From: Rhodospirillales bacterium 20-60-12
GTDB lineage: Bacteria > Pseudomonadota > Alphaproteobacteria > Acetobacterales > Acetobacteraceae
Assembly (NCBI GenBank): GCA_002255495.1
Contig: NCAP01000018.1
Coordinates: 1 to 34,086, forward strand
Direction: 5' to 3'
DNA length: 34,086 bases
The notes under the pieces were generated by a model. That model was given only the letters and a program-made list of their open reading frames with translations, searched no databases and was not told the DNA's origin. The stretch's first letter is position 1. The number at the start of each line of letters is the position of its first letter. Position numbers and translations under genes: made by a program. Positions 4,939 through 24,726 of this stretch are shown here, piece by piece.

Positions 4939-6678
4939 ATGTTAGATCGTCCGATCGCTGGCCAAATCACGAAGCCGGACCTTGGTCAGGGCGGTCAACA
5001 TGCCGCCGCCTCCCCCCGTTCGCCGATTCGGGCCGACATGATTTGGGTTTTGGATGACACCGCGTTCGATGAAGCGACCTATCTCCAGGCCTACCCCGAT
5101 GTCGCCGAAGCGGTAAAACTCGGCACATTGAACGCGGCCTATGATCATTATCTCGCCCACGGCCAGACCGAAGGCCGGACATTCATGCCCGATTATCGCG
5201 AAATCGCCCAACGGCGCTTTTTCGAGCGTCCCACCGCCTTCGATGAAATTCTTGCAGCCTCAGCCCCCGCCCCGTTATGGAATATCGATGCGCTGATGTT
5301 CGCCCCTTGCGGCGCGCTCAGCCTCGCCGGATGGGCCAATGACGGTGCGGACCCGATCAAATTCGTCATTCTACAAACCCAGGACCACGCGCTGCGCCTG
5401 GATCAATCGGCTTTCGCGCGCTGGCGGCGGCGCGATGTCGAAACGTCGCTCACAACACCCATCGCCGGCCATGTCGGCTGGTGGAGCCTGGCCATGCTGC
5501 CCGCCACCCTGCGCCTGCGCGGCCGCTGCAACGTCACCGTTCGCTTTGAGTCCGGCGCCTCCAGCCAACTCGAAATGGAAATGCTGCAAGTCGATCATCA
5601 AATCCTGCGCGACATGACAATGGCGCATTTCGCGCCGCTTGATTATCTCGGCGATCAGGTCGCGGAATCATTCACCGCACTTGATCCCTTCATCGGCGAT
5701 CAGGTGACCGCCCTCAGCCGCATCATCAGCGACAATTTCATCCGCGGCGCGATCAGCGAACGCTTCGGGCCGCAGGCCGCCACCTACAACGCCAGCATCA
5801 TCGTCTGCCTGTATGAACGCGCCTCGTATTTCTTTCTGCAATCCGCTCTGTTCAGCGAAGCGGCCGATCATGGCTATGAATTCATCTATATCAGCAACAG
5901 TCCCGAACTCGCCGACGAATTGCGCGACATGGCACGCATCGGCGCACTCATGCACAGCGCGAGCGTCACCATGGTCACGCTGCCCGGCAATGCCGGCATC
6001 GGGGCTGCCAACAATGCCGCCGCCGCTCTTGCACGCAGCGACCGGTTGGTCTTCATCAATCCCGACGTCTTTCCCTACGAACCCGGCTGGGCCGCCCGGC
6101 ATCTCGCTTTGATCGAGACACTCCCCGCCGATCAAACCCGCCTGTTCGGTGTGCCTCTGGTTTATGGCGACGGCGCGCTGATGCATGGCGGGCTGCATTT
6201 TGCCTTCGATGTCGGTACTACCATGGGGGATTCCTATGTCCGCCGGGTTGCCGCCTTGCGCATCGAACATACCGGCAAAGGCGCGCCACTTTGGGCCGCC
6301 CGCTACACCACAGCCCGGCCCGTGCCTGCGATCAGCGGCGCGTTCATGTCGATCGACCGTGCTTGGTTCGAACAAATCGGCGGCTTCTCTCAGGATTATT
6401 TGTTCGGTCATTTCGCGGACGCAGATCTTTGCCTCAAAAGCGGCGCCGCCGGACAGGCCGTCTGGCTGCATGATTTGAAATTCTGGCATCTGGAAGGCGA
6501 GCCGCCGCCGGCCAAACTGCATCATCAAGGCGGCGCCTTGATCAATCGCTGGCTGTTCACCCGCCGCTGGGGCGCCCTGGTCGAGAGCCATCTGCACACC
6601 CCTCCCGCCGCCGAAGCGCCAGCAATATCCAAGCGCCCTCGCCGGGCATCACCCAGCCAGGACCAAAGCAACCCATGA
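4939..6678 (+). CDS. Family 2 glycosyltransferase with N-terminal 'YLxxxPDV' module
   Basis: This 579-residue protein has three parts. Residues 43-80 hold the FDEATYLQAYPDV...HYLAHGQTEGR module that recurs in alphaproteobacterial surface-polysaccharide glycosyltransferases. Residues 110-260 are not recognised. Residues 284-520 form a GT-A type GT2 domain with a strand ending in FINPDV (372-377, the DxD equivalent), AISGAFMSIDR, GGFSQDYLFG and the acceptor-site motif ADADLCLK (493-500), followed by FWHLEG. It probably adds a sugar to a surface polysaccharide, and donor and acceptor are unknown. The start at 4939 has a weak ribosome site; M34 at 5038 is a real alternative, since the module begins just after it. 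Its stop overlaps the next gene as ATGA. Confidence 0.85.
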   Translation: MLDRPIAGQITKPDLGQGGQHAAASPRSPIRADMIWVLDDTAFDEATYLQAYPDVAEAVKLGTLNAAYDHYLAHGQTEGRTFMPDYREIAQRRFFERPTAFDEILAASAPAPLWNIDALMFAPCGALSLAGWANDGADPIKFVILQTQDHALRLDQSAFARWRRRDVETSLTTPIAGHVGWWSLAMLPATLRLRGRCNVTVRFESGASSQLEMEMLQVDHQILRDMTMAHFAPLDYLGDQVAESFTALDPFIGDQVTALSRIISDNFIRGAISERFGPQAATYNASIIVCLYERASYFFLQSALFSEAADHGYEFIYISNSPELADELRDMARIGALMHSASVTMVTLPGNAGIGAANNAAAALARSDRLVFINPDVFPYEPGWAARHLALIETLPADQTRLFGVPLVYGDGALMHGGLHFAFDVGTTMGDSYVRRVAALRIEHTGKGAPLWAARYTTARPVPAISGAFMSIDRAWFEQIGGFSQDYLFGHFADADLCLKSGAAGQAVWLHDLKFWHLEGEPPPAKLHHQGGALINRWLFTRRWGALVESHLHTPPAAEAPAISKRPRRASPSQDQSNP

Positions 6679-7955
6679 ACACCACCCGCACCGAACGGCC
6701 GCGCGTGCTGCTGGTCAGTATGTTCCACCCGGAATTACAGCGCGGCGGCACACAGCAAATGTGCTACGAATTATTCAGCGGCCTGAAGCAGCGCGGCGAT
6801 GTCGAGCCCTTTCTGCTGGCCGCCATCGATAAAAGCTATCCGGCCTTGTTCAAGCCTGGGGCGCATATCACCGGCTTTGATCAACGTGACGGCGAGTTCC
6901 TGCTCCTCACCGACAGTTATGATCCCGAATGGCACCGCCAGACCAATCCCGCCATCGTCCAAGCCTATATCGATTTCCTCCAGACGATCCGCCCCGCCAT
7001 CGTCCATTTCCACCATTTCCATTTCTTCGGCATCGACCTCGTCTCCCTGACCAGGCGCATTCTGCCCGAAAGCCGAATCGTCTTCACCTTTCACGAATTC
7101 ATGGCCATCTGCCAGGCCGACGGCACGATGCGCCGCCCCTTCGATGGATCGCTTTGCCGGCAAGCCAGCCAGGTGCGCTGCCACCAATGTTTCCCGGCAC
7201 AAAAACCCGAACATTTTCTGCTGCGCAAACTCTGGTTCCAGCATCACCTTGCCCATGTCGATCAATTCACCTGTCCCAGCGCCTTCATGATCGAGCATTA
7301 CGTCGCCTGGGGATTACCCCGCGCGCGGATCACCCATGTCGCCAACGGCCAAGATCATGACGCGGTAAGCGCCACACCCCTGCCGTCACCCGACCGGGCA
7401 AAAAACCGCTTCGGCTTCTTCGGCCAGATCACCGATGCCAAAGGGGTCCATATTTTGCTGCGCGCCGTAACCCATTTGCGCGACATGGGCTTCACTGACT
7501 TCACCCTCGATATCAATGGCGGCAATATCCAATTCGCCTCGCCCTCGATCCGCGCCGAAATCGAAGATTTTCTCGCCGCCGAACAAGCCCTGCCCTATCG
7601 CGAACGGATCGTCACCGCCCATGGCGCCTACCACCCTGACGACCTCGCCGCCCGCATGGACCGTGTTGATTGGTGCATCGTCCCCTCGATCTGGTGGGAA
7701 AGCTTCGGACTCGTTATCTCCGAAGCCTGGATGGCCGGCCGACCCGTCATCTGTTCCAACGCCGGCGGCCCCGCAGAGCGGATCAGCCACAACATCAATG
7801 GATTGCATTTCCCCCTGGGCGATCACCGCGCCCTGGCCGAAACCATCATCCAATGCTGCACCACCACAGGATTATGGGCCAAACTCGCAGCCCGGCTTCC
7901 CAAACCCCCCACCCGTGCCGCCATGACCAGCGAGTTCGCCGCCCTCTACGCATGA
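6675..7955 (+). CDS. Family 4 glycosyltransferase
   Basis: This 426-residue GT-B enzyme begins with strand RVLLVSMFHPELQRGGTQQ, whose glycine turn is typical of GT4 N-domains. It has an acceptor-domain HEFMAICQADG segment and a Cys cluster (C161, C169, C172 in the VRCHQCFP region) often seen in this subgroup. The donor-binding half has FGFFGQITDAKGV (246-258) and the retaining-enzyme E342-x7-E350 motif in WESFGLVISE, followed by GRPVICSNAGGPAE. It most likely uses a nucleotide-sugar to extend a polysaccharide. The four-base overlap with the GT2 gene means the two act as a translational pair. No other polysaccharide genes are nearby. Confidence 0.9.
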   Translation: MNTTRTERPRVLLVSMFHPELQRGGTQQMCYELFSGLKQRGDVEPFLLAAIDKSYPALFKPGAHITGFDQRDGEFLLLTDSYDPEWHRQTNPAIVQAYIDFLQTIRPAIVHFHHFHFFGIDLVSLTRRILPESRIVFTFHEFMAICQADGTMRRPFDGSLCRQASQVRCHQCFPAQKPEHFLLRKLWFQHHLAHVDQFTCPSAFMIEHYVAWGLPRARITHVANGQDHDAVSATPLPSPDRAKNRFGFFGQITDAKGVHILLRAVTHLRDMGFTDFTLDINGGNIQFASPSIRAEIEDFLAAEQALPYRERIVTAHGAYHPDDLAARMDRVDWCIVPSIWWESFGLVISEAWMAGRPVICSNAGGPAERISHNINGLHFPLGDHRALAETIIQCCTTTGLWAKLAARLPKPPTRAAMTSEFAALYA

Positions 7956-22218: not shown

Positions 22219-24576
22219 TCAGGCTGCCTGCGCGTATGACAATTTCGCCACAAAATGCAGCCTGATCCAGATCGCATCGCCGAGCAATCGCGCGGGTATA
22301 ATCGCCGCGCCGTCGGTCCAGCGCTGCCCGGCCTCGACCTCATGCCAGCCTGTCACGAGATCCAGGTGATCGAGCCCAATCCGTCTGATCCCCGTGGGTC
22401 CGCCGAGCAAAATCTCACCGAGCGCCACACCAAGACGCCGCCGGTCGCGCGGGTCGGGTGAAATCTCGCCGGGGATGGCATTGCGTGACATGACCATCAC
22501 ATCGCCCGAATCGGCCGCCAATCCAGCGTGCAGCATATTCTCACTTGCCCATTGCAGCGCCAGTTTATGACACCCCTGCACCAGCCGGATCGCGGGGTCC
22601 GCACTGCGCTTGGTGGTGCAGCGCGCGAGCAGCCGGGCACGTATCGCCTCCACCTTGTCCCCCGCTTCCCAAACCGGCGCGTAACTCGCCTCATGGCGAA
22701 ACGCCGATGCAAAATCCGCATGCAGATGCATCGCCCCGCGCGCATTCTCGAACGCACCGCGATTACCGCAATCCAGATAGGTTTCAACCGGTGTACCGTC
22801 GGCGAATATCACGTCATGAGCGGCGAGTTCGATATGGTAATAAACCACCTGGCTGACGGACAATCGCGCGATCGTCTCGCCATTGAGCAGCGCCTTGGAG
22901 GGCACCAAAATACCATCGAGATACAGCGCATGATCGGGCGAGAGATATAAATCCCGCCTTGGCACGCCATCAATGATGGATCCTGCCTGCAACCGCACCG
23001 GTTGCACGGAATCGGGCCGCGGATGGCGCGCGAGATCGATATGCCGCCGGCCGATCCACTGCACCGGCGCGAGCCCGCCGCGCCCCAGAACCACCTCGTC
23101 ACCGACCCGCATTTCTTCGACCGGCACTTCACCCCGTGCGGTCAGGATCAACACACCGGCGGCAAAACAAGGCATGAAGCCGGTGACCGGCAACCCGACA
23201 TCCTGCAAAATCGCGATATCGACGGCGGAGATATTATGGATCGTGCCGGGATAAAGCCCGATTCCGTTCATCAGATCCTGCGCCAGCCTGTCGGATGCCT
23301 GATTTGCCAAATGGTAATATTGCTCACCGTCTTGCAACGTCGTCAGCGGCACCGGCCCGCCATACAAGGCTTCAGCATGCGGCCCGATGAAGTAATCCGC
23401 CTTGGTTGAGGTGATCGTTGAATAATGGTCGAACAAGGTGGCATAGCTCGGAAGCACGCCGGTAGTTGGATTGCGAAAGCCGATGAAGCCGAGGCCATGA
23501 GTGAGTTCATGGCGGAAAATCGTCACCGCGTCATATTCATTGGCCGGCACCAATCCGCTGCTCGAGGGCGTGGGGTTGACATAGATCTCGCCCAAAGCGG
23601 TCGAGGGAATGTTGATGACAATGTCATTTGTATAACCCGGCGCATGCTTGCCGGTTGTCAGCTCGTAAAGGCTGCTCGGCTGATAAATCGTCTCGCCGTT
23701 GAGAATCTCGGAATAGCTGTTGGTCGCCGGCCCGCCGGTCGATAGCGCGTTGGGGTCACCGGCGAAGGAACTGACGATGCTCAACTCCACCGCCAATGTC
23801 CCCACGCCATAGGCGTAATGCGCCCAATCATCGATCGCCTGCTGCAAATCCGCGACCAGCCCGGCATCCTTCGCCCCGCCATAATGATTCGGGTCGGACA
23901 GGGCGATCGTGGAGTTGAAGAATTCCATCTGCGGGGCAATGCCCGTGAGTGTCTCATTGCCGCCGGCACTGACAATACCGAAGCTCGCGCCGCTCAAATT
24001 GCCCGTGATATCGAACGTGCCGACAGCATTTCCAGCATGTTCGATGAATAAATGATTGCCGCTGAGCGACACGCCATCGCCCGATCGTCCATCGAGAATG
24101 ACCTCGTTCGTCGGCCCGAAATTGCTGATCGTCGCCGAACTTCCCGCGATCGAGCCCAGTTCCAACGCGCCGCTCTCACCATTGAATATCGCACCCAGAT
24201 TAAGGCCCGAGGCAAAGCTCAAAGTCTGCCCGGCAGCGATGGTGTGAACCACCGCCGCAGCAATGGCCGCCGACTTGATGCCGATCACGGCAGGCGAAGC
24301 GGCGCTAACCGGGCTACCCACAGACTGTGAAGCAAGCGCCCCGCCGCCGATGTCAAAGGCAGCTTGCGTTCGGATTGACGGCAGGCTGATCCCGGTCAGG
24401 CCGGCAGGCCCGTCGGGCGCCGGCGCCGTTGCCGCCGGGAGTTGGATGGCGGTATTTAATGGGGCACTGAAGCTGCCGTAAATTGGTGTGTTCAGTGTTA
24501 GAATCTGGGTCCCGTTGCTGCCGAATTGATCCAACCAGCCGCGACCCGGCCGCCTCGCCCATTCTTGCGAATCCAT
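22219..24576 (-). CDS. Zinc metalloprotease-like domain fused to a C-terminal Hint domain
   Basis: This protein has 785 residues. About 1-240 are Gly/Ala/Ser-rich with beta-repeat character (GSIAGSSATISNFG, FDITGNLSGASFG), as in surface or secreted proteins. About 245-465 look like a zinc protease: RHELTHGLGFIGF has H356, E357 and H360, and H422 in YYHLA is a possible third ligand. DLMNGIG and ISAVDIAILQDVGLPV follow, as in matrixin- or leishmanolysin-like enzymes. From C470 a Hint domain of the Acetobacteraceae type follows (CFAAGVLILTARGEVPVEEM, VQWIGRRH, LSPDHALYLDG with H549, ETYLDCGNRGAFEN). No N-terminal signal peptide is seen. I chose the ATG at 24576, not 24582, because GGGAG then has proper spacing. 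Function is inferred. Confidence 0.82.
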   Translation of the reverse strand: MDSQEWARRPGRGWLDQFGSNGTQILTLNTPIYGSFSAPLNTAIQLPAATAPAPDGPAGLTGISLPSIRTQAAFDIGGGALASQSVGSPVSAASPAVIGIKSAAIAAAVVHTIAAGQTLSFASGLNLGAIFNGESGALELGSIAGSSATISNFGPTNEVILDGRSGDGVSLSGNHLFIEHAGNAVGTFDITGNLSGASFGIVSAGGNETLTGIAPQMEFFNSTIALSDPNHYGGAKDAGLVADLQQAIDDWAHYAYGVGTLAVELSIVSSFAGDPNALSTGGPATNSYSEILNGETIYQPSSLYELTTGKHAPGYTNDIVINIPSTALGEIYVNPTPSSSGLVPANEYDAVTIFRHELTHGLGFIGFRNPTTGVLPSYATLFDHYSTITSTKADYFIGPHAEALYGGPVPLTTLQDGEQYYHLANQASDRLAQDLMNGIGLYPGTIHNISAVDIAILQDVGLPVTGFMPCFAAGVLILTARGEVPVEEMRVGDEVVLGRGGLAPVQWIGRRHIDLARHPRPDSVQPVRLQAGSIIDGVPRRDLYLSPDHALYLDGILVPSKALLNGETIARLSVSQVVYYHIELAAHDVIFADGTPVETYLDCGNRGAFENARGAMHLHADFASAFRHEASYAPVWEAGDKVEAIRARLLARCTTKRSADPAIRLVQGCHKLALQWASENMLHAGLAADSGDVMVMSRNAIPGEISPDPRDRRRLGVALGEILLGGPTGIRRIGLDHLDLVTGWHEVEAGQRWTDGAAIIPARLLGDAIWIRLHFVAKLSYAQAA

Positions 24577-24726
24577 CGCCATCTCCCTGTTTAATACAGG
24601 CTATAAAGCCCCTGGAGAAAGCGCAACCCTGAATTGCAAACAGGACAGAACGCCGGCGCGGCAAAACTTGCCGTCGACACGGTTCCTTGTGCTAAACAGG
24701 GCAAACCAAATCCAAAGGAGAAGATC

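Follow-up and report, generated by a model that had tools for sequence, protein, structure and literature searches.

Leishmanolysin (gp63, M8; structure 1lml) is a metzincin with a large insertion before its third zinc-binding histidine, which is regarded as a hallmark and leaves 62 residues between the glycine and this histidine in Leishmania gp63 (PMC11957388). Other metzincins, such as serralysin and SapA, are type I secreted metalloproteases that carry no signal peptide. Among the self-processing domains, B-type BIL domains contain all intein motifs except the C-terminal one and cleave at their N-terminal side (PMC7765530), and the autoprocessing domain of Hedgehog (1at0) is followed by a second domain. 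Hint_2 proteins are numerous in the Acetobacteraceae and are annotated merely as 'Hint domain-containing protein'; one of unknown function is listed as affected in a mutant that overproduces cellulose (PMC11999647).

The window analysed here, a stretch of 34,086 nucleotides that represents one contig (labelled C53) of a 2.97 Mb assembly belonging to the Acetobacteraceae, contains a gene whose product can be compared with all of these systems. With leishmanolysin it shares the metzincin fold, the HExxHxLGF motif, a roughly 60-residue insertion ahead of the third histidine, the Met-turn and an AIxxDxG segment, but it has no Pfam M8 match, no GPI anchor and no N-terminal signal, and it is fused to a Hint domain. 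The latter shares the N-terminal cysteine, the block-B histidine and the intein fold with B-type BIL domains and likewise lacks the C-terminal His-Asn (PMC7765530), the differences being that the passenger is a gp63-like protease and that a conserved domain of about 180 residues follows Hint. The Hedgehog domain is similar in its fold, in the position of the nucleophile and in the presence of a domain after Hint. Serralysin and SapA are comparable as signal-less metzincins and by the RTX and DUF4214 tails of our protease's relatives, whereas here the third ligand comes after an insertion and Hint_2 stands in place of the RTX tail. Each of the parts is of a known kind, but the combination of protease and Hint_2 appears to be undescribed: neither this fusion nor the gp63-like subfamily was found in the open literature searched, subscription papers lying outside its scope. 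As the protease constitutes an assayable cargo, the natural role of B-type BIL domains becomes directly testable, and in addition the protease adds a bacterial, mostly alphaproteobacterial subfamily to the gp63 fold that is missed by current family models.

Gene layout and the gp63-like protease domain

The gene is located on the minus strand at positions 22219-24576 (stop codon included), and its intact reading frame encodes 785 amino acids. Two in-frame ATG codons lie close together, and the mechanically defined frame begins at 24582 and is two residues longer. The 785-residue version is preferred because of the spacing of a putative ribosome-binding site, AGGGAG (24583..24588, minus strand), six nucleotides upstream of the ATG at 24576. 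An earlier note, made from the DNA sequence of this gene, had used the same start and is right in its numbering of H356, E357, H360, H422, C470 and H549; its proposal of a two-part protein, consisting of a zinc protease and a Hint domain, is borne out by profile matches, residue conservation and the predicted structures.

Four regions can be distinguished, all on the minus strand. Residues 1-217 (23926..24576) form a repeat-like N-terminus that lacks a signal peptide by hydropathy and whose later part, judged from its similarity to L010, L018, L019 and L020, resembles the beta module located ahead of Hint in adhesin-like paralogues. They are followed by the leishmanolysin-like metzincin domain (residues 218-469; 23170..23925), the B-type-like Hint_2 domain (residues 470-604; 22765..23169) and a C-terminal domain of Hint_2 proteins (residues 605-785; 22222..22764), in which DRRxLGV and RWTDG motifs were recognized by alignment. 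Hint_2 was the sole match in a Pfam scan of the entire protein, residues 605-785 giving none.

The zinc motif HELTHGLGF (residues 356-364; 23485..23511, minus strand) contains the predicted zinc ligands H356 and H360, the predicted base E357 and the conserved G363. These four residues are invariant across 26 aligned protease domains, as are D383, H422 (23311..23313, minus strand) and the leucine and M436 of the Met-turn DLMN (residues 434-437; 23266..23277, minus strand). H422 had been named in the earlier note as a possible third ligand, and the protease type had been called unclear on account of the glycine at the canonical third-ligand position of metzincins. This glycine is real, but the question of type is settled, since it is explained by an insertion of the leishmanolysin type before H422, with 58 residues separating G363 from H422 as compared to the 62 of gp63. 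H422 is almost certainly the predicted third ligand because it lines up in sequence with the third histidine of leishmanolysin and the modelled fold matches as well. A degenerate or inactive metzincin was considered and rejected, as the third ligand sits after the gp63-type insertion.

The AlphaFold2 model of the protease domain (pLDDT 91.8) retrieved leishmanolysin 1lml as top match in a structural search (Z 16.4, 193 residues, 2.6 A), followed by MMPs at a Z of about 10. A profile search of the PDB with the diverse alignment A1 led to 1lml with a weak E-value of 0.8, HExxH, the third histidine, the Met-turn and the following strand-helix or AIxxDxG segment being in register, and the less diverse alignment A6 gave no match in the same kind of search. 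The earlier note had suggested an HMM search with the Hint_2 and leishmanolysin families, of which Hint_2 was found, whereas the M8 profile PF01457 matched neither the 785-residue protein (E up to 1) nor its relatives (E up to 10). The NCBIfam model NF038122 (metallo_LGF) covers the region from the zinc motif to the domain end with 24.5 bits against a cut-off of 80 bits. It weakly matches 21 of the 26 relatives, with a best E-value of 5.2e-12, and stays below 80 bits in several of them as well as in our protein; these relatives are usually T1SS-like or Hint_2 fusions. As there is no M8 match and the NF038122 score is below threshold, the safe name for the protease is a leishmanolysin-like metzincin from a subfamily without a current family model. 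With HExxHxxG, the third histidine, the Met-turn and the fold, all features of a metzincin are present, and residues 218-469 probably bind zinc and act as a peptidase.

The Hint_2 domain and the predicted cleavage site

PF13403 (Hint_2) matches residues 469-603 with an E-value of 1.7e-43 and 148.9 bits, the cut-off being 28.4. The predicted structure of this domain resembles the bacterial intein-like domains 6y75 (Z 13.1) and 2lwy (Z 12.9) and the Hedgehog domain 1at0 (Z 11.1), with C470 aligned to Hedgehog residue 258. Conservation was analysed in 78 distinct Hint_2 domains originating from this genome, from other Acetobacteraceae and from alphaproteobacterial plasmids. The first cysteine is present in 78/78, and the block-B histidine, the block-F histidine and the histidine before Asp are found in 99-100%, which, together with the PF13403 match, confirms that C470 opens a Hint domain and that H549 of the SPDH motif (residues 546-549; 22930..22941, minus strand) is its block-B histidine, as proposed before. 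Indeed, the conservation of HExxH, H422 and M436 on the one side and of the Hint cysteine and block-B histidine on the other is far beyond chance.

The predicted scissile bond lies between P469 and the presumed nucleophile C470 (23167..23172, minus strand). Proline at position -1 occurs in 46 of the 78 domains, that is in 42/66 of the Acetobacteraceae set and in 4/12 of the plasmid set, the latter comprising Methylobacterium, Rhizobiales, Rhodobacterales and one member of the Acetobacteraceae. A proline at this position is normally poor for intein N-cleavage and slows it down, suggesting either that Hint_2 domains are adapted to proline or that the thioester is meant to last.

Blocks F and G are contained in HIELAAHDVIFADGTPVET (residues 581-599; 22780..22836, minus strand), where, according to the alignments, E598-T599 replaces the His-Asn of inteins. 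In the column of the penultimate intein histidine all 78 Hint_2 domains have glutamate, and His-Asn has become Glu-Thr or Glu-Ser. A splicing (class 1) intein was rejected on the grounds of E598-T599, and since the C-terminal His-Asn is replaced in this manner, cleavage at the N-terminal side without splicing would be expected. Self-cleavage before C470 is thus suggested by the precedent of the B-type BIL domains (PMC7765530) and by the conserved cysteine and histidine.

Hint_2 proteins, protease relatives and the export route

In this genome, 17 Hint_2 matches are distributed over 16 genes, and a further C-terminal part at the edge of contig C74 brings the number to at least 17 genes, or at least 16 besides this one. 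Their passengers are mostly repeat-rich, adhesin-like and without signal peptides. Most of these proteins have a C-terminal domain corresponding to residues 605-785, which within this genome is restricted to Hint_2 genes except for one weak partial match (E 0.1); several Hint_2 fusions (L041, L042, L047) stop soon after Hint and have no such domain. A different arrangement, in which a repeat-like passenger and Hint_2 are followed by a family-4-type glycosyltransferase (PF13692), was confirmed only in contigs C140 (L075:7432-10266) and C80 (L080:11905-14727), the enzyme possibly being a passenger-modifying or releasable transferase. In another Hint_2 gene (contig C78, L083:6344-8952) the frame is broken within Hint, indicating either a pseudogene or an assembly error. 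Among the Acetobacteraceae, Hint_2 was present in 95 of 120 genomes, with up to 25 matches in one of them.

A single-sequence search of the genome contigs found no close relatives of the protease. When the genomes of the family were included and an alignment was used as query, relatives were detected in Acetobacteraceae, Bradyrhizobium, Methylobacterium, Belnapia, Roseicella and one Deltaproteobacterium. Eight proteins in seven genomes combine the gp63-like core with a Hint_2 tail; elsewhere the same core ends in DUF4214 with RTX, cadherin-like, FG-GAP or PDVA-type repeats. In the protease tree the Hint label requires two changes; seven Hint proteins cluster and one (L057) is placed apart, with modest support. 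A matrixin-type protease (PF00413) is also fused to Hint_2 in genome G068 of the same family (L018:424-3414, minus strand), from which it is concluded that the coupling of protease and Hint arose more than once.

The absence of a signal peptide, from which the earlier note had deduced that any export would use another route, was confirmed by hydropathy, as there is no hydrophobic stretch at the N-terminus and no signal peptide in residues 1-50. Another route is supported by the relatives, which look like type I secretion substrates: in nine of ten Bradyrhizobium loci the protease gene adjoins HlyB and HlyD genes, and Hint_2 is preceded by fused RTX repeats in proteins of Ruegeria sp. TM1040 and Aliiroseovarius. 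Together with the RTX- or DUF4214-type tails of the relatives and the single HlyB/HlyD pair of this genome (contig C5), this makes type I secretion our best guess for the 785-residue protein. There are however several observations against it. None of the Hint_2 genes examined in this genome lies beside type I genes, the hydrophobic C-terminal tail of the Bradyrhizobium and G133 relatives is absent from Hint_2 proteins, and the two paralogues with a glycosyltransferase would suit the cytoplasm. Linked ABC/HlyD genes and RTX repeats are absent from this gene and from the window and present in relatives, the one HlyB/HlyD pair lying elsewhere in the genome. The co-occurrence of Hint_2 and HlyD across the family was considered as a test of type I export and is uninformative, because HlyD is present in 115 of the 120 genomes.

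Proposed mechanism and alternative explanations

The reading that we favour, with moderate confidence, is that of a secreted zinc endopeptidase of the leishmanolysin fold on a Hint_2 tail, which would be exported by type I secretion and then cut between Pro469 and Cys470. Synthesized without a signal peptide, the protein would be exported from its C-terminus, most likely by the sole type I system of this genome, and the Hint domain would fold outside the cell. There, C470 would attack the carbonyl of P469 in an N-S acyl shift assisted by H549, and the thioester would be resolved by water or another nucleophile, hydrolysis being the presumed end step. The products would be an N-terminal part with the protease (residues 1-469, 48 kDa) and a part of 34 kDa made up of Hint and the C-terminal domain. 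No cut or splicing would occur at the C-terminal side, as the intein His-Asn is Glu-Thr here. Of the earlier reading, the domains, H422 and the non-classical export are retained, and self-cleavage before C470 keeps the rank of a prediction.

Alternatively, Hint could be a folding, export or anchoring module which no longer cuts and leaves the protease tethered. The frequent proline at -1 and the fact that Hint_2 takes the place of secretion modules in otherwise similar proteins would both fit, but the cysteine and the block-B histidine are retained practically without exception across 78 domains of several orders, which is hard to explain without catalysis, and we regard this explanation as unlikely. 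Cleavage might also occur early, while the newly made protein is still in the cytoplasm; the Hint-C-terminal part would then be a removable cap and the protease would be exported or act separately. Inteins and Hedgehog become active upon folding and the paralogues with a glycosyltransferase have a cytoplasmic appearance; early cleavage would however remove the type I C-terminal signal, for which residues 1-50 offer no substitute, so that this course of events seems distinctly improbable. A Hedgehog-like transfer, in which the C-terminal domain offers a nucleophile (sugar, lipid or lysine amine) and the C-terminus of the protease is joined to a surface or matrix molecule, receives mild support from the dedicated domain after Hint, reminiscent of the sterol-recognition region in Hedgehog, and from the slow prolyl thioester that the conserved proline would be expected to give, as well as some from the glycosyltransferase after Hint in two paralogues, but it is very doubtful given that the fusions which end soon after Hint argue against a general rule and that no ligand or adduct is known.

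In its widest form, which we consider a long shot, Hint_2 and the C-terminal domain would constitute a general bacterial tail that ligates the C-termini of many secreted proteins to a surface or matrix molecule by means of a long-lived prolyl thioester. This would be a bacterial counterpart of Hedgehog ligation serving many proteins in one genome, the gp63-like protease included.

Matches to Tox-PLDMTX, TcdB and Cu,Zn-SOD, which fell into repeat regions or below the cut-off, were taken as compositional noise. Several further observations were made at neighbouring or related loci. The window contains two adjoining glycosyltransferase genes at 4939-7952 (plus strand), the first of which opens with a YLQAYPDVAEA repeat similar to the PDVA repeats found after the protease in Roseicella (L059, L060). 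Genome G133 contains a tandem array of four gp63-like proteases whose tails are of the RTX and DUF4214 kinds (L148:7589-13391), and a fifth starts just beyond (L022). Finally, in the deltaproteobacterial relative (L064:1083-2210) this protease core is preceded by what looks like a signal peptide and carries a further kind of tail, a VPEP-type (PEP-CTERM-like) C-terminus.
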